Part shown: positions 2,368-58,905 of the stretch, in pieces
Layout of the letters: each line of letters begins with the position of its first letter
How positions within the stretch are numbered: position 1 is the stretch's first letter
Source of the DNA: Hypomesus transpacificus
Lineage: Eukaryota; Chordata; Actinopteri; Osmeriformes; Osmeridae
Reading direction: 5' to 3'
Length of the DNA stretch: 64,000 nucleotides
Assembly: GCF_021917145.1 (NCBI RefSeq)
Contig: NC_061064.1
Span: 5,472,091 to 5,536,090 of the forward strand
Notes under the pieces: model-generated
Databases searched by the model: none
What the model was told of the DNA's origin: nothing
Seen by the model: the letters and a program-made list of their open reading frames with translations, nothing else
Position numbers and translations under genes: made by a program

Positions 2368-6620
<4,253 letters not shown>

Positions 6621-7180
6621 TGTGGGAAGATGGGAGCGAGGTGGAGGGCGCTTCTCAGACAGCCGTGCATGTCCCCAAACTGCTTTTACTCTCCCTGTTG
6701 ATGTCAAAGCACAGGATAGTGGAGGGAAAAGTGCTCGATGGTTGACAATTTGTTTTGGTCAGTGCTGTTTCGTGTCACGTGATGCCACACTAGATTGAGA
6801 TGCGCTGACGGTCAGTTTGTCCACCTCACAGAACAGCAATATTTCACCTTCCTTCAACCTTTCTTTTTATATTTCAAATGGCTATCTGATATGAGAGGAC
6901 TATGATAGGAAAGTGTAGACTAGCCAATCAGAGACAACAAGGAAGGGAACACACGTTGAATCCCTCAATATGAAGTTGAATTGCACTGTGCCATAGACCA
7001 CTCCTGTTTATTTGCATTACACTTGTACCTGTATTTCTGAAGGGACCATTGAAGATTAAGTGAGCAGGAGTCTTAGTATTGTTGGACTAAATAACTGATT
7101 GCTGTGATGTGAGGATTAGCAGAAATTAATGTTTAACCTCAATGTCATTTTGTTCATTCTTCACTGTACTGTTGAATAAA
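6621..7180 (+). other. tpte 3' UTR with polyadenylation signal
   Basis: Non-coding sequence follows the TAG stop. An AATAAA hexamer at 7175-7180 is the likely polyadenylation signal, giving a 3' UTR of about 0.57 kb. Confidence 0.7.
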
Positions 7181-8425: not shown

Positions 8426-11267
8426 CTAGCAGAGGGTCTTCCTGACGGCTCGGACCATGTCCCCCCCAAAGCCGTTCAGGATGTCGCACTGCTCCAGCTC
8501 GTCGTAGCGCCCGCTGCGCAGGAAACACAGGAGGCCCGTCTTGCAGGTCTCCTTGCAGGGCGCAGACACGTGGCCCTTGTGCCTGAGGTACCAGAACCGC
8601 TGGAAGACCCGGTCGTCACTCTGGAAGGTCCGGAGGAGGCCGTCCCAGTCGGAGGGGAACAGGCTGGACACCCCGTAGGCCTCCGAGGCCCGGTACAGCA
8701 GGGTCCACTTGGGGTTGGGGTCTGGGGCCAGGGGGGAGGAGGTAGGGGGGTGGTTGGCGTTGGTGAGGTTCAGGATGTAGGTCTCGTGGTCCAGAACCAT
8801 ACGGGAACTGCCTGGGTAGTTGCCGTCCACGAAGTAGACACGGTAGCCTGGTGACACACACACAAACACACACGGTACCTGTTAGGATGTTTGATGTATT
8901 GCTGTACATGTCCCAAGTATAATTTCTATTTGTCTGAAATAGTGCTCTGAAGACAGATCAATGTCGTCAATTCTTTGTACTTTGATGGTGTCTCGACATG
9001 TGACTGACCGTTGCCGTGACTGATGTGATTAACTTGTGACAAAGAACAGAAAACCGATTGATTGCGTCTGAAGTAACGCGACTTGTGGACGTCTGTTTGA
9101 GATGACGTGCAAGGACGCCAAAGTCCACTGTTGAAGAAGCGCTACACGAGGGTGTATAATGTCTCGCTGAAATCATTGTTCGTTTGAGAGACACACCCAG
9201 AGCCCGATAGCAGGTGTGCCCTCCTCGTCTGCAAACATCAAAGAGTCCCCGACAAAATTGCACTTGCCGTTTGATCCTTAGCACTTACTTCGTGCATCAG
9301 TTCAAATAGCATGCTGTGGCTGAAACTCGACGGAGGGTGGCCCGTGGCGAGCATTGGAGATGGGGCGTGTCCTCACCTGGGTTGAGGTTGATGTAGGTGG
9401 TGACGCTGGGGGCGATGAAGGCCACACCCACCGCGCGGGTCATGGTGGCCTTGTCGTAAAACATCTGGAACTCATCCAGGTGCGTGTGACCGAAGAACTG
9501 CCCCGTGATGGTACTCTCGTACCTGGTGGAACCCCCAGACAACGCCAAACACTGTTCAAGTCACTGTCTCACACGCACACTCATTTCATGCACCAATTTG
9601 ATCGCCCAGCTATAAACTCAACAAATACAACAACATGATAGTCGGGTGCCTAGGCTACACATCACATGCTACTTGAAATCATTAACCTTTCAGTCAACCT
9701 CTGGTTATTGACTTTCCGTAAGCCCAGCCCATCATGTAAACCCATCTGTAAGGACTGAGAGTAGACTACATCTCTACACAGTAAAAAATAAAACTCAAAT
9801 GGGAAATTTGTGGGGAAGTAAAACTACCGTTTTGGGATTTGATGCCAACGTTTAAGCTGATTAGTGTTTTTTTTGCCAAAATACTTCTGGTCAACTGAAA
9901 AAGGATATTTTACCAGAAATCTATTTGGTACACTTTTACCATCTATCCACCATACAAATTGTATTTGTTTGGGGGTAAGACCATACACACACACCAACAG
10001 TAAAACCATTTCAGTAAGCACCTCAAAAGCTTGTTGGCAGAAATATTGTGCTAAATACACTGAATAACTTGTTAGCTTATCCATTCAACCATTTATCTAT
10101 CCACGTTAGCTTAAAGTTGCATTAAATACAGAACTAAGAACTCATGGATGTCATTTAGTGGATGAACAGAATGAACTATGGAATGAACCGTTGTGAAAAG
10201 TGTGGCCACAGCACGGTCATTGACCTGTGAGTGGGATACTGGGAAGTAGCTAGCATAAAGTCAGAAATGCTGACACAGAGACACAGACCTGTTCATGATA
10301 TGATAGTAGTTCCAGCTCCAGCTACTCAGACAGAGCCCAGGAGGGATGTGTCCAATGATGTGGACCTGAGAGACAGACGGAGAGAAAGTCAGACAGCTGT
10401 AGGACCTGGATCGAGGGGGGTTATCTGAAAACCAGCCATGTAGGCTGGTTCACACTATTCAGCACCAACCCTCTTTAACGACGACTCAGTTTACTACTAG
10501 TTGACGTTTCTTACCCCCTTCCCCACACCCAAACAAAATATCCTTAAACATGTCATCCCCTTATTTTCCAGTTCCTCATTCCTTCACACCACCCTTCCTC
10601 CATCACCTTCTCTCCCTTCTCCTCGCTGGTCTGCAGGACGTGGACCAGCCACTGGAGCTGGTTGGCTGGGTCCGTGGAGTTCACCATCAGCCAGTAGTTC
10701 TCCCTGGCGCAGAAGTTCATGTTGAGGGACACCACGCGAAGTCCAGGTTGGACCTCCACCGTGTAGAAACCTCCATGCCTGAGAGCGAGAGAGAGCGAGA
10801 GTCCAAGCCTCAGTGATACTAATAAATTTTTGCCAAAATATTTTTCCAATCTGGGGGTCAACTGTGGCATGGCTAGCCTAGCAAGGGGTTCATCATTTCT
10901 CCGAACTAGCACAAATAGCTTTGCGGCTAGCGTTCCCACAAGCAAACAAGGAAGTTCCACCACAAATCTTTTTCACTTTGAATCAAGACTTCCTGATTCA
11001 GAGGAGAGTTCGGTACCTGAGGGTCTTTAGTGCCGGCTCGGGTAGCCACGGCGCCCACTCTTCTGCCATGGTGTCATAGAGCCAGCGGGAGGAGCGGTTG
11101 CCGTGGACGAAGGGCGGGGGGAAGCTATTGACCGGGGTGCTCTCGTGGTTCCCCACTGCGGGGTACACCTTCACGTGGGGACCCAGGTGTCTGGAAAGGG
11201 AGGTAGAAAAGGGGGAGGGAGAATTAGAGAGGTCAGGTCAGTCACAACCTTTCTAATTCTCCCTCCC

Positions 11268-11305
<38 letters not shown>

Positions 11306-13257
11306 TGAGACCCAAACGAGCCAATCAATCTCATACTTGTGTATGAGCCTGGAGATAACCGACAGCTCAGAGAGCTGCTGTTTCCTCGTCTGGGACCAGA
11401 CGTTGTGAGCCGGGATGTCGCCAGTCCAGTACACCCAGTCCCAGGGCCCCGTTCTGGCAACATTCTCCAGAAGGTTCTCCACAGTACGCAGTGGCAGGTC
11501 ACACTTGCTGTAGGTACCCCAGTAGCCCGCCTCCCGCTGACGCCAGCTGGGTGAGCCAGAATCGTTACGGCAACACAGGGGGTCCTTACAGTCAGCACTG
11601 CTCCCTTCTGCATACGCCTGATATAAAATGAAACAAGAAGAAAGATGTTTACAGCGAGAGCACTGTGTCTGGCTGTACCCTTGAGTTACAGTTATCCAGT
11701 TACATTTCTATTACACCCTGGCCATCAAAGACACAACTACAACTACTGTAACAGGTCAGGTGGAATCCAAATAAACACACTTTTACCTGTGGGACTTTTA
11801 ACTGTACAACTACCTTAGTCTACACAGCTAGAACAAATAGTATTGTGAGGGTTATTCAACATGAACAGTGCTACTCCGCTGCACACACACCAACTCACCT
11901 GGTCCCAATGGATGTCTGTGATGAAGAGTACCCTGTTTTGAGGGGACCTTGGCTTGGGGGGGCTGGGAGGGACGACCGGGGGCTTGGGGACCTGGGGCAG
12001 GGTGATGTTCCAGGGCGCGTACAGGTCAAAGCGGCCGCAGGAGGAGCCCACCAGCAGGGCGCAGGCCTCGGAGGGCCATAGCAGCGAGCGCTGCAGTGCC
12101 CGGATGAAGTCGTCCCTGAACAGCTCGGTGATCTCGCGGCAGACGCGCTTGTCGGCCAGGTGGAGACGCATGCAAGCCTCGCCCATCGCGTACGCCACTC
12201 GCTCCATGTTGTTGTCACTCTGGGGGGGGGGGGGGGGGGGGGGGGAGGGGCGAGGGGGCATGAGAAACTTCATCTTGTGGAAGTAGCCAACTCTTAGCAT
12301 TATTAGTTGTAGGTTAAGTGTGAGGAAAATGAATCAGCCAATACAAATGCTCTTTTATGACTCAAAGTGGTCATGCACAGTCTATAGAATAGCCGACGTT
12401 TAGCGCATCAGATACTTGAAAGATACAGAATGACATTTCTCAATAATATACATTTACATTTATACATTTAGCAGACGCTTTTATCCAAAGCGACTTCCAA
12501 GAGAGAGCTTTACAAAAGAGCATAGGTCACTGATCATAACAACGAGGTAGTCCCAAACATTGCAAGCAGCCAAAACATGAAGCATACATTGTGAAAAAAC
12601 TAAACAAGTGGCAAAAGGGAAGACCCATAAGAGCATGCAGTTATACAAGTTACTAATTAAAACAACATGAATCACAAAAAGTACAGGACTGTACCTGTAG
12701 AAGAACAATCAACAGTAAAATATTTTACAGCGAGTACAAGATTTAACTTCGTTATAACTAACCTACAAGAGCAACAAGTCAATCAATAAGAGTCATTATG
12801 ATCCTGGAGGAAACATCAGGTCCAGCCAAGCATTCCTAAGTGCCGTTGTACTCTTATAATTGTATATTACAATCTTGTAACATACAGATTGCTAGGGAAC
12901 ACAGCACAACTTTAAAAGCTGCCGAAGTTTCACTGTCTTTATTGCAGTATAAACATTGTTCCTGATATCAATAATGTGTGGTTGGATATCAACTCGCTGT
13001 TGGTGAGGTTAGTTGTTTACATTACTGAATTCACAAAAAAATCTTACCAGTAAAGCTATATCCAGTATAGTGAACAGGGTTTTGCATATTGGACAGGTGA
13101 GATTCCGCCAGTTGAACCCGACCCTAAGTCTATCGATCTCGTCCATAAACGTCAGGTTCGGCTCATCAAGAACGGGATGAGACGAACCGTACGGCGGCGA
13201 CACCATCAAAACAAAACATATCAACCCAAGAGTCACCGAGAGGGATGCAACCCTCAT
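8426..13257 (-). CDS. smpd1: Acid sphingomyelinase (sphingomyelin phosphodiesterase 1), 8 exons
   Basis: This lysosomal or secreted zinc hydrolase cleaves sphingomyelin to ceramide and phosphocholine. Exons in transcript order: 13048-13257, 11899-12219, 11337-11617, 11017-11190, 10607-10778, 10289-10365, 9377-9522 and 8426-8847. Phases match throughout and give 600 aa (human about 630). A hydrophobic signal peptide starts at Met1. A saposin-B domain starts near [11 protein letters not shown] in exon 1 and continues into exon 2, followed by a Pro-rich linker. The metallophosphatase ligands are all visible: Asp172 and His174 (DIHWDQ), Asp244 (TGDIPAH), Asn285 (GNHE), His392 (GHIPPG), and His424 and His426 (FFGHTH). 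Their offset from the human ligands is a constant 33-34 residues. A Cys-rich C-terminus ends KTLC. The frame is intact. Orientation is convergent with tpte. Confidence 0.97.
11271..11307 (+). repeat. (TG)n microsatellite in smpd1 intron
   Basis: A TG dinucleotide tract lies between smpd1 exons 3 and 4, close to the exon 3 donor. Confidence 0.9.
12222..12245 (+). repeat. Poly-G tract abutting smpd1 exon 2
   Basis: A run of about 24 G on the plus strand is the pyrimidine tract of the smpd1 exon 2 acceptor on the coding strand. Confidence 0.9.
12451..12800 (-). mobile_element. Retroposon-like repeat in smpd1 intron 1
   Basis: On the minus strand, 12451-12510 reads as the common fish retroposon tail (AAGCGTCTGCTAAATG followed by ATAAATGTAAATG). 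The AT-rich sequence to about 12800 is probably the rest of the element, but that boundary is uncertain. Confidence 0.55.
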
Positions 13258-15027: not shown

Positions 15028-21040
<6,013 letters not shown>

Positions 21041-22425: not shown

Positions 22426-23888
22426 TCAAGAAGGGGGCGGAGAGTCCTGTTTGGTCACAGTGGATGATTCTATACTGGGGGAGATGGACACGTCGCTACC
22501 GTTGGTAACTGGGATGCTAACCATCTGTGAAGGGGCTCCAGAAGGAGCCAGGACAGGCGCAGACATGACCCCTTCGGGCAGGCCCGGGTTGGGTGCCATT
22601 ACTGGGGCAAATACGGCAGGAACCCCTGGGGCTGCTGGAGCATGTGGGATATCACGCAGCCCAGAACTAGCGACTGATGTAACCTCTACTGGTATCGCTG
22701 TTGCTGCCGGTGTCATCGTGGGTGGAACTGATATTACCAGTGAAGAGTTTCCTGGCACAATAGGGGCCGACACACCTCCATTTGTAGTTGTGAGCCCACT
22801 TACAATAGAGGGAGACTCTAAAGGTGGGACTACGGTAAAAGCAGTTCCGCTCACAGCTTCGGATAGTGAGGAGAGAGGCGCTGCTGCTGGGGTGATGGCG
22901 GGCATAGCGATGGCCATTTTGCCATCTTGCATGGGAGGAGCAGCAATTGAAACAGAGGATATAGGAGCAAGGTCAGCAGGGGACTCTAACCACTCTGAGT
23001 TTAGGACCGGGGTGGACATCGGCGGTACCTCTGCTGTCCCTAGAATGTCACCTAGGACAGGGCCTGGGCTCTGCATGACAGGGACATCAGCTGAAAGTCC
23101 TGTTGTAGTGGTCTGGAGGCCTGTGAAATCTCCTGCTCCACTCAACGCTGAGGAGATCATCTGGGGTGTTTCTGTTGGTACTAAGGGAAGTGGAGATTCC
23201 GCTACAGCAGACCCCCCTGGAAGAGCACCAGCCCCAGCCTCCTCTGAGGCCCCGGCTGCTTCCACTGCCCTGGCTGCCTCCGCAGCCTTGCTCTCCATCT
23301 CCTCCATGCGGCGCTGAACCATTTTGGGCATCAGCTGAACGTAAGTGCCCATCAAGCGATGGTTGGAGCGGATCAGCTTTCCTGCACAGTTGTCCGCACA
23401 GCGCTCCTAAAGGACCACATTATGATATTTAGCCACCCATATTGGATCATTAATAGCATTCATTGCATAAATTCATCACCACCGTATGATTAAAACCAAT
23501 CATCTGACTGCTAGACAAGCCAAAGCTCACTGAACAACAATGACGAGCGAGTGACGGGAAATTGTGAAAAGTGCATGTGGAGCAGCATTTGGCTGGTCAG
23601 TTGACTACTTGAATTGAAAACCACGACGAGGAAGCTACTTAATCCATTTCTGACATACCTCGTCCATAGTGAGGCTTCTGTAGTTGAAATTGCTGGAACA
23701 TCGCTGGAAACAAATCTCTGTCATGCGGTTGTAGACCATGAGAAAGTCCCGAAGCTACGGAGACAGTCAGTGGTTGATTAGAAATAACGACGTTTATCTG
23801 TCTGTTCAGAAACTTGCTAATCCATGCCAATATAATATGCATTAAGAGGTTAACTTACATTCCGTAGCTGTTGTTGCTCAGATTCCAT
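22426..23888 (-). CDS. timm10b: Mitochondrial import inner membrane translocase subunit Tim10B, with long C-terminal tail
   Basis: Tim10B (FXC1/Tim9b) is a small Tim of the intermembrane space that joins the TIM22 carrier-import complex. Exons: 23859-23888, 23659-23754 and 22426-23406, with clean GT-AG borders and matching phase; 368 aa. The small-Tim fold is clear: twin CX3C motifs at Cys25/Cys29 (CFQRC) and Cys45/Cys49 (CADNC), then [20 protein letters not shown]. The first 80-100 residues match the human protein of about 103 aa. Beyond them the last exon stays open for roughly 270 residues of Ala/Pro/Ser/Thr/Val-rich sequence with no recognised domain. A reverse-strand AATAAA (plus TTTATT) lies at 22179-22184. 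The start is at the first ATG in the exon, with context GCCATGG. Confidence 0.93.
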
Positions 23889-26923: not shown

Positions 26924-28826
26924 CCTGGATCTCATCCGGTATCCCTAGACACATGACTCTGCCACAGAGCAACAAAGTCTGAATTTATTGGAAACAGAAG
27001 ACAACATAAACTGAAAAGTGTTTGGTCACCGAAAATTCAGCGTTTGTGAATGTTCCGGCATTTTCATTGTCTTTCTTTCTAGGTAAGTGAAAGTTTGCAT
27101 TGCAAGTTGAAACTAAGTACTCCTAAACATTCTTCATTATCGCATTCTGTCATGTTCAGACGTTTTTCAGAAGTTTTTATATGGTCTCTAGTGAGCAATG
27201 CGGTCAGACTTAAGGTTCATATTTCCATTTTTTCCCACAATGTAGAGCAGTAGATTAATCTTTTTTGTGTTAAAGAGTCATTCAGTCTTTGTCTCTCTCT
27301 CTGTCTTTATCTTTCTTTCTCCGTGACCCTTTTCCTTCCAGAGTTATGGAAGGGCAGAGTGGTGGCAGGGCTGGGGAAGAGGCAGAGTGTATAGGGAAGA
27401 GTCAGGGCTTGACCTTCTGGCTGGCCAGGCCGGAGGATTACCACGAGGTCATGTCCATTTCTGAAGACATCTACTGGGGGAACGACTACCTGCCCTATCG
27501 CTACCACATCTGGATGACTCAGCCCCATCGACTGGTCATACTGGCACGCAAGAACAGCAAACTGGTGAGACTGGAAATGTTAGAACTGCTGGCAACACTG
27601 GGACACACACTTGGATGGTCCCATCTTCCTGTGACCTTCTCAGGTTCCATGCTTAAATATCCATAAGTGATGTACAGCATTACCTGTTCCGGTCTGGGAT
27701 GTCTAAATCCCCCCCAAAAGAGATACAAAGAGAAACGTTTTCTAGCCTTCTCTAAAGGATCGCCCAGGGGATAGAAGTTTTAATACTTGCCATATAAACG
27801 ATGTCTTCAGTAGAACATGAATCACATGGGCCTTGCAGATAACAGAATAATCTGTGAGAACGGAAAACACACTGTGTACTAGTACTGCATCAGGAGCAAT
27901 AGATAACAAGAGGTCAAACTCAGGAGAGATCACAGAAAAGGGCCCTCAATCGCTAACTTTCTACGATATTTTATTTCCTTTTTTCCCCCACAGAAAAAGA
28001 TCATTTCCGGGTCCTCGTTTTAGAGATCAATCCACAATGGCATAGTTTTGTGATATCATGGGAGTAGCAAAATAAGAGGCTAACCAACAAGCTAGCTACA
28101 CTGACAGGACTAACAAACTGCAGGTCACTTTATGTGATGACATGTAGCCAGACCATGATATCCAGAAGTTTGAACATGCTGACAGTGATTAAATGTATTA
28201 GTTGCAAAGTGTAGTTGCAAGTTTTAGGAAGCTTCCCGCTATGACCCTGGAATTTCCCATAATTGTGTATCATTAACACTCTGTAGTTGCCACTAATATG
28301 TGGCAAATGATCACTAGACTATTTGAGGTGACACTTTACATTAATAAGGGCTCTCAAGTCTCACACATTTTTCCACAATGTAACCTGTATCATGGAAAAT
28401 CTTTTGCATTTCTTGAATGTGTCTGAGGTGGGTCTGGAGTCGGGCTTGGTGGTGGACGGAGCGGAGACGGTCGTGGTGGAGGGGCCTGAGAGTGAGTCCT
28501 GAGGAGAGGGGGCCGAGGCATGGCGGGGATCCTCCAGTGTTTCGTCGACGACTTCTTCAAAAGACGCTATCCCACGCTGCAGCGGGCCAGGCTGACCCGC
28601 GACGACGACCCCGGCCCACAGCGGAGCCTCACCTTGCTGGACAAACGGGTGAGCAGGACAGAGGTCACGCGGCTCTCGTTTTTGTTTCTGGCGTGTCCCT
28701 GCCGGGGGTGGGAGACGCTTGGTGTGTTCCACCCCGTTTCTGTCACGCTGAAGCTCATGCTTTCCCCGACGCTTTTTCTTTTCCTTACCTCGTCTTCTAT
28801 TCCGTTTGCCCTTTGTTTCTCACCCT

Positions 28827-29110
28827 CCCTCCCTCCCTCCCCTCACTCCCTCCCTCCCTCCCTCCCTCCCTCCCTCCCTCCCTCCCTCCCTCCCTCCCTC
28901 CCTCCCTCCCTCCCCTCCCTCCCTCCCTCCCTCCCTCCCTCTCTCTGTCTCTCTGTCTCTCTGTCTCCCTCTGTGTCTCTCTCTCATTCTCTCTCATTCT
29001 CTCTCATTCTCTCTTCCCTTTCTCTCTCCCTCTTATCCCTCTCTCTCTTCCCCATCTCTCTCATTCTCTCTGTCTCCTCTCGCTCAATCTCTCCCCCCTC
29101 TCGCTCTCTG
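28827..29110 (+). repeat. (CCCT)n and CT-rich tract in nat16 intron 2
   Basis: Roughly 115 bp of CCCT units are followed by degenerate CT repeats. Open frames here encode only Pro/Ser/Leu repeats. Confidence 0.95.
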
Positions 29111-29249
29111 TGCACCTTTACCTCCCCTACTCCCTCTCCCCCTACGTCTCCCTCCCCATCCTCAACCCTGCCCGTGACATGTGCCCTGACGGCGAGGTGG
29201 TGATCATGCTGATTACAGGCTGTGATTGTTATAAATGGCCTCATTATGG

Positions 29250-29251
29250 GG

Positions 29252-29292
<41 letters not shown>

Positions 29293-29325
29293 GGGTGGGG
29301 GGGGGCGGGGGTGGGGGGGGCCAGG
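29250..29325 (+). repeat. Long poly-G tract
   Basis: About 38 uninterrupted G (29253-29290) are followed by G-rich sequence. It is potentially quadruplex-forming. Confidence 0.95.
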
Positions 29326-29489
29326 GGAGAGGGGACAGACTAAGAGGTTTATTATCACAGGGCCAGGGGAGGTGTGCGGGGGGGGGAGGTGGAGTAGAAG
29401 AGAGGGGGGGAGTTGAAGTGTGTGTGATGGGGTGGGGGTGGGGGGGGGCAGTGAAGGCAGGCTGTAGGAAGGAAGGAAGAAAATGAAAG

Positions 29490-29511
29490 AAAACTAGAGA
29501 GAGAGAGAGAT

Positions 29512-29577
<66 letters not shown>

Positions 29578-29808
29578 GTGGGAGTGAGGGGAAGCGCACG
29601 GGAGGAGACGAGATTGACAGTCAATTGCACCAGAACAGCTGTTTCCTCCCCTACATCAACACCAAGACGAAGACAGGATTTTTTTTTCCCCCCGGCTCCT
29701 TGACTGATGTGGCTACACATCCCCCTGGTGGCTCCTTCAGCCCTGCTCTTCATCAGCTGCTTGGCAGAGAGAGAGCAAGAGAGCGAGGAGGCGAGAGAGC
29801 GAGAGAGC

Positions 29809-29876
<68 letters not shown>

Positions 29877-30053
29877 CGATTTATGAGACAGGAGAGAAAG
29901 GAGAGCGATTTTCTTCAGAGATAGAAAGAGACTAAGACAGAAAGAGAGAGAGACGGAAAGGGAGGGAAAGTTATCAGACAGAGAAAGAGACAACTGCTAG
30001 AAAGAGAGCGAGAGAGAGAAAGAGAGAGAGAGAGGGGGAGGGAGGGGGAGGGG
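29490..30053 (+). repeat. Cluster of (GA)n tracts
   Basis: GA tracts at 29490-29575, 29788-29872 and 29927-30035 are separated by short unique sequence. Confidence 0.93.
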
Positions 30054-31458
30054 GTGAGGGGTTGATGGTCTAGTGGAGATGAGAAGTACTCAGAGTAGAT
30101 CCTATGACTGGGGCTTGGTTAAGGGCCTGCTGAAGACAGGGGACTAAGGATAAATGGACGGTGGACTTAAAAAAGATTGATCGAAAGCCAACATGACACT
30201 TTGATCCGACTGTTCCCCACGTTTCCCCTTTAGCTTAAACCCCCCTTCACTCACTCGTATAATGGAGCCAGCTGGGTAGCGCGCAATTACCCATACAAAG
30301 CACCCCTCTTCACACACACACACACACACACAAACAGAAATGTATGCACTCTTACATACGCACACACACAGTCACGCTCACAGTCACTCACAAAGCCTGA
30401 ACGCAGTATCAGTCGTCGGGGAAGTGTACTTTGAGTGAAAGGCTGTTTATTGAGTGCAGGTGCAAGGAAATGGCAAGGGTGCACATTTTCATCTCAAATG
30501 GATTTTTAGCAGTGTCAAGTTTTTGTGTTTGCGTCAATAAAAGGCAGATGTAAGCTCTTACATTTTAGACTGGAAGTGCGTCAAAGCTAACAAACGATTC
30601 TATACAGAATATCTGGTGTGGGAAGGGGGCTGTCTAGTAAAAACAATTAAATGCACGCCAGATATGTTTTAAAAAGGGAATTGCTATGAATGTCCTAAAG
30701 TTACATATTTCGGGACGTGTATCTCTTTGTTCCTCTCTTCTTCTCTGACTCTTTCGTCCAGCCTCGAGACTGACCTCTTCCTGTTTGACTCTTGCCCTAG
30801 TCTGTCCTCTCCCTCTGCTGTGAGGCTGGCCAGTACCACGACTTCCTGTTTCATCTGAGGACCAGGCTGGGAGAGGAGGAGGGGAGGAAGAACCCTGGTG
30901 TGGAGGAGGAGGAGAAGAACGAGGAGGAGGAGGAGAGATCTGTGCCTGAGCTGCTCTTCCTTGAAGGTAGAGATCTGAGGTCGGTCCTCCTCCTACCCTC
31001 CCTCCCCTCCAGGGTCTCCCTCCCCTGCCGGATCCATCATACGTGACTGGCTGCCGGTTCTCCCAATCCACAGCAACCTCCCCCTACTAGACAGGCCGGA
31101 GCACATCTGGTTGGTGGATCAACCTCAGAGTCCCTCCTTCCTCAGCCTCCACACGCGGCCCTACCCAATCCCATTTGGGGGCGGGGCGGAGGGTGTGCCT
31201 GAGCATGGACCTGTTTGGGACCAGTGTGGCTTTAGCGCGGCAGGCCTTGACCCAGCACCTGGAGAGGGCAAGCTCGGACGTGTTCAGGGCGGTGCTGGTG
31301 CACGTGGTTCATGGACAGCTCTCTGCTGGAGCGCCTGGCCCCAGTTCTGTGAGGGCGGAGCGGCCAAGAGGTGTGAGGTGCGGTGGGACCAGGTGCTGAT
31401 GGAGAGAGATATCTTGGACAGAGAGTAAAAAAGAGAGACAGAGAGCATGTGATTAGTG

Positions 31459-31490
<32 letters not shown>

Positions 31491-33049
31491 CAGACAGAGA
31501 AAGAGAGAGAGAGAGAGAGCAAGTGAGCGAGAGAGCGAGCGAATGAGTAGGAAGTGGAAGGGAACAACAAGAGGTGAGGCATTAAAGAGAGAAAGACAAG
31601 ATAAACCAACTTTAAATAAGACCCAGCGAGTTAGGGATCAAATGACTAAACGAGTGAGTAAAGAGGGCGAGAGAGTAACAGAAGGAGTCAAATGGAAAGG
31701 AGAAAAAGGCCCCTTGGGTGAGGAAAGGATGCAGGAAAGAGAATGGGCAGGGAAGGAGGTAGGGGAAGCAAAGGCAGAACAAAGAGGCATGGAATTACAG
31801 TGAAACAAGGGTGCGCACACACAAAGCACACACACACATGCACACACACACACACTTAGTAAGACACACACAGACACACATTCAAACACGCATGCACACA
31901 CATAGTAGCACACACACGGGCACACACCCAGACCTGCACACACACACGGACATTCTACACATCCACAGAAACACACACATCATTAAATGCACAGTGCACA
32001 CTATAATCAGTCCTTATCAGTCCATTCACCAGTGCTCTCAACCCCTTGCTCACTCCAAACCCGGGCTGTGTGTGTGTGTGTGTGTGTGTGTCAATCAGCT
32101 TTCCTTTGTCTGAACGGGATGGAGCAGCCAGAGGGGATGAGTGGGATGGATGTAGAGGGATGGAGGGAGGGAGATAAAAAAGGAGAAAAAAAAACAGGGC
32201 AAAAAGAAGGAAGGGGTGAGCGAAAGGCGACGGAAAATGCGAAATCTCCACGTGTGAGGTGTTCGATGGGGTTTTGTCCGTGTGTGTCTGTGGTGTCTGT
32301 GTGGATACAAACACATCGTTTTGGTGTGTATTGGATTTTGCCGTGTGTGTGTCTGTGTGTGTGTGTCTCAGTTTCAGAATCCCGCCAGTGCACCACAACA
32401 CTCATGCACCAATGATGTGAACGTTTGACACACCATTCCCTCTGGCCATGCTCGGATTAGTCAGTGGTGAAGACGCTCCACTGTCCTTCGTGAAGCGCTT
32501 TCTTTCCAGTGTTTCCAATACTCTCGTTTTCTGTGTGTCAGTGAAGAATAAAGACGTTGAAGACAACAGCGGCCTGAGTCACAATGTGTTGGAGGAACGG
32601 GGGGGGGGGGGGGGGGGGAAGATGGACAGGAGAGCCGAGGAGTGGGGAGGAGGAGGAGGAGGAGGAGCGGGGGGTGAAGGAGAGGAGGTGGAGGAGAGGA
32701 GGTGGAGCGTCCACGGGTTCGTTGATGCAGTGGGCTCGCTGCCACACAAGGCACCCCCGCCCGCTGTCCAAATACACGAGACACACACCCACATCTAATC
32801 ATTCGCCCCCACATACCCCCCCCCCCACCCCCACCCCCCCCCCTCACCAGACACACACACTCGTTCACGTAGCCCTCTTCCCACCAACCAGCGGGCTTGC
32901 GTCCGCCGTGACGTCACGATGCAGTTCCCGGCAGCCTCCACAGGATGCCAGTGGCGAGTCGCCTCGCATACGGAGAACAACGGCGCCCGTTCAGTTTCGG
33001 GGCGTGTTTGTGTGTGTGTCTGTCTGTGTGCGTGTCTGTCTGTGTGCGT

Positions 33050-33198
33050 GTGTGTTTGTGAGTGTGTGTGTTTGTGAGTGTGTGTGTTTGTGAGTGTGTG
33101 TGTTTGTGAGCGTGTGTGTTTGTGAGCGTGTGTGTTTGTGAGTGTGTGTGTTTGTGAGTGTGTGTGTTTGTGAGTGTGTGTGTTTGTGAGTGTGTGTC
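33050..33198 (+). repeat. 16-bp TG-rich minisatellite
   Basis: About nine tandem copies of the unit GTGTGTGTTTGTGAGT, some with C in place of the last T. It follows a simpler TG/TCTG tract from 33005. Confidence 0.85.
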
Positions 33199-37155: not shown

Positions 37156-37326
37156 GGGAGTCAAGTGGCTGAGCGGTTAGGGAATCGGGCTGTTAATCAG
37201 AAGGTTAAAATGACGTTGTGTCCTTGGGCAAAGAACTTCACCCTAATTGTCTCGGGGGAATGTCCCTGTACTTACTGTAAGTCGCTTTGGATAAGAGCGT
37301 CTGCTAAATGACTGAATGGAAATGTA
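37156..37326 (+). mobile_element. tRNA-derived SINE with internal deletion
   Basis: The 5' head (GTGGCTGAGCGGTTAGGGAA) is tRNA-like and includes an A-box. The body includes CTTGGGCAAAGAACTTCACC and CGGGGGAATGTCCCTGTACT. The tail is TAAGTCGCTTTGGATAAGAG followed by CGTCTGCTAAATG. The GGTTCGAnTCC B-box expected after CAGAAGGTT is missing, so this copy should not be transcribed by RNA polymerase III. Confidence 0.85.
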
Positions 37327-41853: not shown

Positions 41854-41953
41854 NNNNNNNNNNNNNNNNNNNNNNNNNNNNNNNNNNNNNNNNNNNNNNN
41901 NNNNNNNNNNNNNNNNNNNNNNNNNNNNNNNNNNNNNNNNNNNNNNNNNNNNN
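41854..41953. other. Assembly gap of 100 N
   Basis: Exactly 100 N, a conventional placeholder for a gap of unknown size. Confidence 1.
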
Positions 41954-56901: not shown

Positions 56902-58905
56902 ATGGTCATGACCTGTCGCCACATCCCCTCCACAGCCCGACTCGCCCTACTGGTCCTACTCACTGTCTCACCACAGCTGGCTGGAGCTGCTGCTGTGGGA
57001 GTGGAGAGGGTGGAGGGGGGGATGGAGGGTCTCACCCGGACACACCCCAAAGAGGACGACCTTAGTCCCCTCCACACGCCCCCCGGGCTCACCCTCCCCA
57101 GACCCTTTAGCACAGTTCCCCTGGAGCAGGACCAGGGCACCCCAACAGACATGGACCCTGCCCAGATGCTGGCCTCCGTTCTTCTGGAGGCCCTGGACCA
57201 CCCTGGGGCTGCAGAGACACTGGGCAGGCCAGAGGAGGGAGACAGTGCAGAGGGGCAAAGGCAGGAACCAGCCCACCTGGAAGCCAGGGGAAGTCAAGAG
57301 GGAAGGAGAGTAGGCAATGTGGAGGAGGAGAGATGGGGGCTGGGGGAGGAGAGTGGTGTGTTGGAGAGGAGGATGGAGAGGCTAAGGGCAGCCTTAGAGG
57401 CAGCAGCCCAGGGGGAGGAGTTAAGGGAGTGGGAGGAGGAGGAGGAGGAGAGGAAAAAGTCTCAGGAGGAGAGAGGCGGCCCAACGGAAGGTGAGGTGGG
57501 CCGCGACGGAGGCGGAAGCGAGGACGGTGGAGAACGAGAGGAAGAGGAGGAGGAGGAAAGAGAAGGAGCGGAAAGATCGGGGACCGTCTCTGACGGAGCA
57601 GAGTCCTCGCTCCGGCGCAAAACGAGAGGTTACTTCCAGAACATTGACCTGGGCCTTCAAGACAATGAGATCTTACCTCCTCTGAAGGGCTACAAGGCAT
57701 ACAATACCCAGCTGGCACGAGCCGGCAAAAAACTCCACTGGCAGGAAGAGCAGGCGAGCAACCGGCCGATCCAGGGCAGCAACTTCATGGACGACTTTGA
57801 CAACGAGGGCGAGGAGGAGGTGGAGGAGGAGGCGGAGAGCCTCACCCGCGCGGAGGAGGAGGCGCGTGCCCGCGCCGACAAACAGGAGGTGCTGAGGCAG
57901 CAGGAGGAGGCGGAGCAAGCCCGCGAGGAGGAGCAGCGGTTGGCCGACATCGCCTCGGACATGCTGCTGCAGTACATGGGCAGGAAGCAGCAGGGGGCGC
58001 CCTACCTGGAACCGCGCCGCAAGTCGAGCGTGGACGCCAACGGCAACGCGGCCGAGGACAAGCGCTCCGAGGAGGTGGCCACCGACGACGACGACGGCGA
58101 CCTGGATCAGCAGATGATCGACAGGCTGATCGAGATCAGCAGCAAGCTGCACCTGCCCGCCGACGACGTGGTCGAGATCATCAGTGACGTGGAGGAGAAA
58201 AAGAAGAAGAGGAAGGAGCTGCCGCCGCCCGGCAAGCCCGTCGCGCCACGCTTCCGCCCCCTGGTGCCCCCTCCCCTGGCTGGACCCCCAATCTACCACT
58301 ACACAGCCTCCAGCAACCCCAAGAAAGCCCCGTACAAAGCCAACAGGAAGTGGCAGAAGGACAAAAACAAGGCCAAGTCCTATAAGCAGGAGTACTGGTA
58401 CAAACCCCAGAAGCAGGTCGACTACTGGTACAAGCCACAGAAACAGTTCCTGGCCTTCCCCTCCTACCCCTACTACCAGAAGCCATACCGAGCCTACTAC
58501 CCAGTCTACTTTCCCTACCCCAAAGCCACCGGCTACTACGATAAGACTTCCCTTCCCAGGGACCAGCAGCTGTTTGTCCCCCAGGACTACGGCTTCCAGC
58601 CCCCCAGGCGCAGGCACCGTGCCGGGGTTAAGGCGAGGGGGCAGGGCTGGAGGCAACAGCCACCTCCACGCCTGCCTGCCACCCCGTACATCTCTAACTA
58701 CATCCTCCCCCACCCACGGACCTACCAGCCCCTGCCTCCCCCCAAACCTCGTTCCCCCTCCGGGAGGGGCAGGCAGCCCCCCTTCTACTACCCCCCAGCG
58801 CCGGGAGATGACTACGAGGAGGATGGCCTGGAGCCCCAGCTGGACAGCGACGAAGAGCTGGAGAACTTTATTGAGAGGATCTACATGAAGCGTAGAATGT
58901 ACTAG
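56902..58905 (+). CDS. vgf: Neurosecretory protein VGF precursor
   Basis: VGF is a secreted neuronal and endocrine precursor cut by prohormone convertases into bioactive peptides. The whole protein (667 aa; human 615) lies in one exon starting at the acceptor 56871-56872, as in mammals. The first ATG is at 56902, with a second in-frame ATG at 56908; either precedes a hydrophobic signal peptide (LALLVLLTVSPQLAGA). The middle is Glu-rich. Conserved blocks include EEQRLADIASDMLLQYM, AEDKRSEE, MIDRLIEISSKLHLPADDVV, a multibasic site (EEKKKKRKE), and the C-terminal EELENFIERIYMKRR. The same order occurs in mammalian VGF, where basic sites of this kind are cleaved. The fish protein adds a Tyr/Pro/Lys-rich stretch (58380-58540) with two copies of YWYKPQKQ. 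The frame is intact. Confidence 0.95.
   Translation: MVMTCRHIPSTARLALLVLLTVSPQLAGAAAVGVERVEGGMEGLTRTHPKEDDLSPLHTPPGLTLPRPFSTVPLEQDQGTPTDMDPAQMLASVLLEALDHPGAAETLGRPEEGDSAEGQRQEPAHLEARGSQEGRRVGNVEEERWGLGEESGVLERRMERLRAALEAAAQGEELREWEEEEEERKKSQEERGGPTEGEVGRDGGGSEDGGEREEEEEEEREGAERSGTVSDGAESSLRRKTRGYFQNIDLGLQDNEILPPLKGYKAYNTQLARAGKKLHWQEEQASNRPIQGSNFMDDFDNEGEEEVEEEAESLTRAEEEARARADKQEVLRQQEEAEQAREEEQRLADIASDMLLQYMGRKQQGAPYLEPRRKSSVDANGNAAEDKRSEEVATDDDDGDLDQQMIDRLIEISSKLHLPADDVVEIISDVEEKKKKRKELPPPGKPVAPRFRPLVPPPLAGPPIYHYTASSNPKKAPYKANRKWQKDKNKAKSYKQEYWYKPQKQVDYWYKPQKQFLAFPSYPYYQKPYRAYYPVYFPYPKATGYYDKTSLPRDQQLFVPQDYGFQPPRRRHRAGVKARGQGWRQQPPPRLPATPYISNYILPHPRTYQPLPPPKPRSPSGRGRQPPFYYPPAPGDDYEEDGLEPQLDSDEELENFIERIYMKRRMY

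Follow-up and report, generated by a model that had tools for sequence, protein, structure and literature searches.

Gene content of the locus

The window examined in the present study, a 64-kb stretch of DNA, holds a three-exon gene on the forward strand (27346-31428) whose sequence assigns it to NAT16/HISAT (histidine N-acetyltransferase). Its coding exons are as follows.

27346-27564 (+), coding exon 1: 219 bp, 73 codons, frame unchanged; matches human NAT16 (PDB 9emd) at E 6.2e-11
28428-28648 (+), coding exon 2: 221 bp, with the acetyl-CoA-binding GNAT motif and two +1 frame changes
30801-31428 (+), coding exon 3: 628 bp with the stop codon, holding the second GNAT-like half (Hisat_C) and four frame changes whose best reading is +1

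Each of the three exons matches human NAT16; read through their frame changes, exons 2 and 3 align at E 1.8e-13 (query residues 2-67 of 75) and E 1.7e-16 (query residues 55-208 of 212), respectively. The Pfam family Hisat_C (PF24066, curated cut-off 27 bits) was found in two exon-3 frames, at 5.2e-14 (52.7 bits) and 4.6e-06 (27 bits, at the cut-off), and reached 89.3 bits over profile positions 30-124, without net gap, once exon 3 was read through. Acetyltransf_1 (cut-off 20.7 bits) had no match in the unjoined pieces in the Pfam search and scored 24.6 bits after read-through, and the GNAT acetyl-CoA motif is present with R131, G134, A136 and the beta-bulge residues G123 and L124. GT donors and AG acceptors were read by eye at the exon borders, including the donor of exon 1 at 27565, and the exons join in phase 0. 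On the same strand, 25 kb further downstream, there is a VGF reading frame, assigned on a short match; human NAT16 is described as sitting between MOGAT3 and VGF (PMC12219266). On the strength of these sequence matches and the nearby VGF, the gene is identified as NAT16/HISAT at its conserved place. This agrees with the preliminary description, which had called it nat16-like; the similarity claimed there for the full length covers most of the protein, the exceptions being the first 54 residues of exon 3 (a Glu-rich start) and the last 8 of exon 2, which fall outside the human NAT16 match. No second copy was found within the window, where tblastn of four gene pieces returned their own places and two chance-level matches (E 0.45 and 0.47).

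Several other features were noted in the window. Pieces at 3326-6795 (+) have weak PKD_channel and PTEN_C2 matches below cut-off, and we take them to be voltage-sensing PTEN-like phosphatase-like. A UnaL2 LINE 3' element (Rfam RF00436) at 37264-37317 is the sole RNA family match over the window, in which no tRNAs were found. This element and the gene set point to a ray-finned fish as the most likely source. There is a 100-base N gap at 41854-41953, so the window probably joins two contigs.

Six frame changes in exons 2 and 3

The reading frame advances six times, twice in exon 2 (frame 0 to 1 to 2) and four times in exon 3 (0 to 1 to 2 to 0 to 1), while exon 1 has no frame change. The positions are listed below.

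Near 28482-28486 and 28506-28510 (+), first and second exon-2 jumps: +1 each
Near 31022-31025, 31177-31186, 31304-31308 and 31337-31341 (+), four exon-3 jumps: best read as +1

Because these paths imply two and four extra bases, the lengths of exons 2 and 3 become multiples of three, and with the phase-0 joins this bears out the earlier statement that removal of the extra bases restores consistent phase. A frameshift-aware alignment to human NAT16 was run at six penalties (6, 9, 12, 15, 20 and 30). Penalties of 12, 15 and 20 each yielded six frame changes that share a direction modulo 3, with no stop codons and 123 of 270 residues identical; there were 14 events at the lowest penalty (6), eight at the next (9) and three at the highest (30). 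Two of the six jumps (31183 and 31274) come out of this alignment as -2 instead of +1, an effect of one additional residue in human NAT16 at these points, and the last two are located at 31274 and 31326, not near 31306 and 31342.

The -2 calls raise the alternative of fewer or mixed events, in which some +1 pairs would be single deletions (a +1 pair leaves the frame as one -1 does) or -2 losses would underlie two jumps, so that the uniform +1 sign would be an artefact of frame joining. Such a reading is compatible with the other explanations considered here and seems improbable on the profile scores and residue matches. In exon 2, the two +1 jumps give Acetyltransf_1 its 24.6 bits, neither of the two single-jump variants has an Acetyltransf_1 match, and the nine residues of the middle frame (LRVSPEERG) are identical to the human LRVAPWERG at 7/9. 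In the alignment to human NAT16, the first exon-3 jump comes out as +1 whichever of the six penalties is used. A +1 reading of both the second and the third exon-3 jump gives Hisat_C 89.3 bits, against 87.7 or 85.3 bits with a residue added at one of them and 83.8 at both, so that the profile prefers +1 at the two doubtful jumps by margins of 1.6 and 4.0 bits. Replacing the last two exon-3 jumps by one -1 lowers the score to 85.6 bits; the profile does not extend to the last jump (89.2 versus 89.3 bits), for which the F..LA-FC spacing equals that of human NAT16 when it is read as +1. Single-deletion and -2 readings were thus disfavoured by the profile scores, although the human-only alignment partly favours -2. 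Judged from these alignments, +1 is the better reading at all six jumps, three of which are firm and three less so, resting on small score margins or residue spacing. The six insertions of the preliminary description, all +1, accordingly remain the best reading, with this difference in firmness.

Five of the six jumps fall within or next to a G/C run of at least four bases; such runs occupy 5.6% of the bases of exons 2 and 3 (run lengths as assembled, extra bases counted). The earlier placement of every jump in or next to a short G/C run therefore holds for these five; at the jump near 31306 the sequence is GGTT, which scarcely counts as a run. At the first, second and fourth jumps the extra base could belong to either of two adjoining runs. 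The jumps are spread over 2.9 kb of genome (28482-31342); in coding sequence this amounts to about 0.85 kb, divided between two exons, rather than the 0.6 kb first given. Taken together, single-base indels of one sign (6/6 best read as +1) mostly fall at runs of at least four (5/6).

The conserved frames downstream of each jump would also suit programmed +1 frameshifting or an RNA-level correction, by which the gene would be expressed as it stands. Six +1 sites in one mRNA make this extremely improbable: antizyme uses one such site, and we know of no vertebrate mRNA with six separate ones.

State of the encoded protein

The read-through path of the frameshift-aware alignment to human NAT16 contains no stop codons, as had been noted previously. 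Of 13 ligand residues (substrate or CoA contacts) taken from the published account (PMC12219266), with an offset of 23 for the 9emd numbering derived in the present analysis, 12 are kept, namely Y74, Y79, G123, L124, V126, R131, G134, A136, T160, R161, D163 and W246; the thirteenth, F63, is Tyr here. The kept residues include all four that bind histidine (Y74, Y79, W246 and T160) in the sequence alignment.

Marks of a pseudogene were sought as stop codons, deletions and loss of splice sites. Neither stop codons nor splice-site losses were found, and deletions are disfavoured, two jumps being less certain in this respect. Taken alone, the lack of stops says little, since its probability would be about 0.02-0.20 under neutral decay, a range that uses ratios of 6-14 substitutions per indel. 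Together, the lack of stops and the kept splice sites and ligand residues are unlike what several independent neutral lesions usually leave behind. They weigh against a real, very recent NAT16 pseudogene or null allele, in which the enzyme would be lost from this locus and another hisat copy might exist elsewhere: six lesions would have accumulated without a clear deletion, longer insertion, stop or broken splice site, and with 12 of 13 ligand residues retained. Fish lens, brain and retina are reported to contain much N-acetylhistidine (PMC12219266, PMC4496688), so loss of HISAT would probably be costly.

Neighbouring genes

Three neighbouring genes served as controls.

56902-58902 (+), VGF reading frame: 667 codons, 2001 bp uninterrupted; open control and syntenic neighbour of NAT16
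15031-18311 (-), ILK gene: intact control; 11 pieces, 1272 bp, first exon not covered
8429-13146 (-), SMPD1 gene: intact control; 7 pieces, 1617 bp, and a small piece near 10353, ends not covered

VGF was identified by PDB 7d13 ('Neurosecretory protein VGF') at E 0.0025 over 28 query residues only, and its frame has no Pfam match. The ILK pieces align with the PDB 3kmu kinase chain over its whole 271 residues and with 3f6q (ankyrin chain) at 36-179; those of SMPD1 align with human ASM (PDB 5i81) at residues 29-375 and 399-561, the stretch between being found separately. No frame changes occur in these 4890 bp, as the preliminary description of intact neighbours had it; the pieces were chosen as open frames, and what tests ILK and SMPD1 is the coverage of the human counterparts, which shows no loss. 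The controls hold 81 G/C runs of at least four (19 in ILK, 23 in SMPD1 and 39 in VGF), compared with 11 in exons 2 and 3. The VGF frame has a GC content of 62.7%. Since it is equally GC-rich and open, and the controls are undamaged, GC content alone is not the cause of the damage; the artefact in GC-rich DNA raised earlier is favoured as an artefact, with GC-richness alone excluded as its source. An open frame of 326 codons at 22429-23406 (-), without a Pfam match, was not used as a control; it begins Tim10-like, continues with an Ala/Pro/Thr-rich tail and is presumably TIMM10B-like.

Damage limited to one gene, with three others clean, is what a recent null allele would produce; assembly errors would need to be restricted to a patch in which NAT16 happens to lie. 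The control closest to the gene on the upstream side is 9 kb from exon 1, and on the downstream side 25 kb from exon 3. Between NAT16 and its neighbours, no coding sequence was recognised in any of 88 open frames (Pfam, E 0.001), these being the frames of at least 62 aa among 131 of at least 50 aa from 23.5-27.3 and 31.4-56.8 kb once low-complexity and N-containing frames had been removed. A local bad patch would therefore leave no visible trace outside the gene, and its extent cannot be gauged from these stretches.

Local sequence context

Repeats found by Tandem Repeats Finder lie inside and directly after the gene.

28823-30034, simple-repeat-rich stretch of intron 2: 1.2 kb (Tandem Repeats Finder and run census)
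31471-31547, (GAGA)n tract directly after the stop codon (Tandem Repeats Finder)

The intron-2 stretch contains (CCCT)30, a 39-base G run within a 73-base G-rich tract and several (AG)n arrays, and frame jumps are found on both sides of it. The damage has a better local correlate in these simple repeats, within intron 2 and immediately past the gene, than in GC-richness. A 16-base tandem array at 33004-33197, 1.6 kb downstream of the gene, has 0% indels; short as it is, it gives no hint of a bad patch at that place, which counts against an artefact.

Mononucleotide runs of at least 10 bases in the window are G/C in 22 of 28 cases and A/T in 6; for runs of at least 20 bases the counts are 8 and 1. 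Fugu, rainbow trout and coho (coded Trub, Omyk and Okis) are the three fish genomes reported to have more poly(C/G) than poly(A/T), the opposite being general (PMC8186053), and a poly-G excess was for this reason rejected as proof of bad sequence.

Slippage at G/C runs is a real source of mutation, which in a window so rich in long G/C runs lends some weight to a recent null allele; that short G/C runs also lengthen by biological slippage counts against an artefact. The stronger proposition that a fish lineage has just lost HISAT/NAT16 through a burst of G/C-run expansions is unlikely. If it were true, the osmotic balance of the lens would be run in another way or from a second copy, HISAT/NAT16 being the enzyme of the N-acetylhistidine lens 'water pump'.

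Origin of the frame changes

The pattern of insertion-only, single-base, mostly run-associated and stop-free changes around a repeat-rich intron fits residual assembly error better than true loss. We consider it probable, at roughly 0.6, that the six extra bases are residual assembly indel errors in an ordinary and probably working NAT16/HISAT gene. The CCCT, poly-G and AG repeats of intron 2, together with the GA tract that follows the stop codon, would lower usable read depth and mapping; insertion-type errors of single-molecule reads would tend to lengthen short runs; and local failure of polishing, which repeats of this kind may well invite, would let insertion errors survive in exons 2 and 3. 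The real protein is predicted from its sequence to be a double-GNAT histidine N-acetyltransferase making N-acetylhistidine.

Published indel spectra and error rates give rough support. In mammalian neutral spectra the deletion:insertion ratio is given as 1.3-1.9 (PMC2671719), and raw PacBio error rates as 8.0% for insertions and 3.2% for deletions (PMC7671305). Bearing in mind that mammalian spectra are applied to a fish and raw rates to consensus errors, that the platform of the assembly may differ and that three jumps are less firm, six of six single-base insertions would have a probability of about 4e-6 to 3e-5 under the neutral spectra (0.002-0.007 given single-base size) and six of six insertions one of 0.13 under the raw PacBio rates. 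Counting against an artefact, insertions are reported to outnumber deletions in opossum (deletion:insertion 0.85:1; PMC2671719), a ratio that for one-base events gives, by hand and as roughly, 0.54^6 = 0.025. In GC-rich DNA, older Sanger and Illumina assemblies are described as having erred and PacBio-based ones as better, which does not favour a long-read error (PMC9516821). For bacteria, many apparent pseudogenes are reported to be assembly errors (PMC11017572).

A recent null allele also has precedents: birds, mouse and rat are reported to lack NAT16, and the large majority of RefSeq entries from non-primate mammals carry a low-quality flag (PMC12219266). Set against the retained protein features, these make it possible, and less probable than assembly error. 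Among recent loss, artefact and loss of N-acetylhistidine synthesis, the three options offered at the outset, the evidence thus leans to artefact, and the term 'disabled' goes further than what has been established.

Either outcome has consequences. If real, the locus would represent a vertebrate in which N-acetylhistidine synthesis from this gene has been knocked out naturally. If an artefact, it warns against calling NAT16 loss from assemblies alone, and the sign, size and run context of the corrections would provide a test for mammalian low-quality NAT16 models. A NAT16 model can need several corrections yet keep its catalytic residues and splice sites.

Comparison with known systems

Human NAT16/HisAT (PDB 9emd and 9emo; PMC12219266) shares with the present gene double-GNAT sequence in all three exons, the active-site and CoA residues and, in the window, VGF. 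The gene differs from it by the six frame jumps, Tyr in place of F63, identity limited to the 123 of 270 aligned residues and an exon 3 whose first 54 residues are unalignable. MOGAT3, a neighbour of human NAT16, was not recognised in the window.

Teleost HISAT (hisat), reportedly described by Yamada and Arikawa in 2014, is the expected orthologue and the enzyme of N-acetylhistidine synthesis; the sequence comparison made here is with human NAT16 only. Among the literature matches listed, none describes a broken teleost hisat, and in one hisat figures as a candidate gene that differs between lineages of pink salmon (PMC8682878).

In the zebra finch, an earlier assembly is reported to hold false insertions in a GC-rich exon of PCDH17 that resemble gene damage (PMC9516821). 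There, assemblies were compared and 10x reads used to check frameshifts, whereas the frame jumps described here are known from one assembly. A further parallel is provided by the 'Low quality protein' NAT16 entries of non-primate mammals, which are likewise models in need of correction against their assemblies. No more than 23% of the mammalian NAT16 sequences found, most of this 23% being primate, are stated to lack the low-quality label, for a reason called unclear; the authors suggest pseudogenisation (PMC12219266), whereas the pattern in the present gene points to sequence error.
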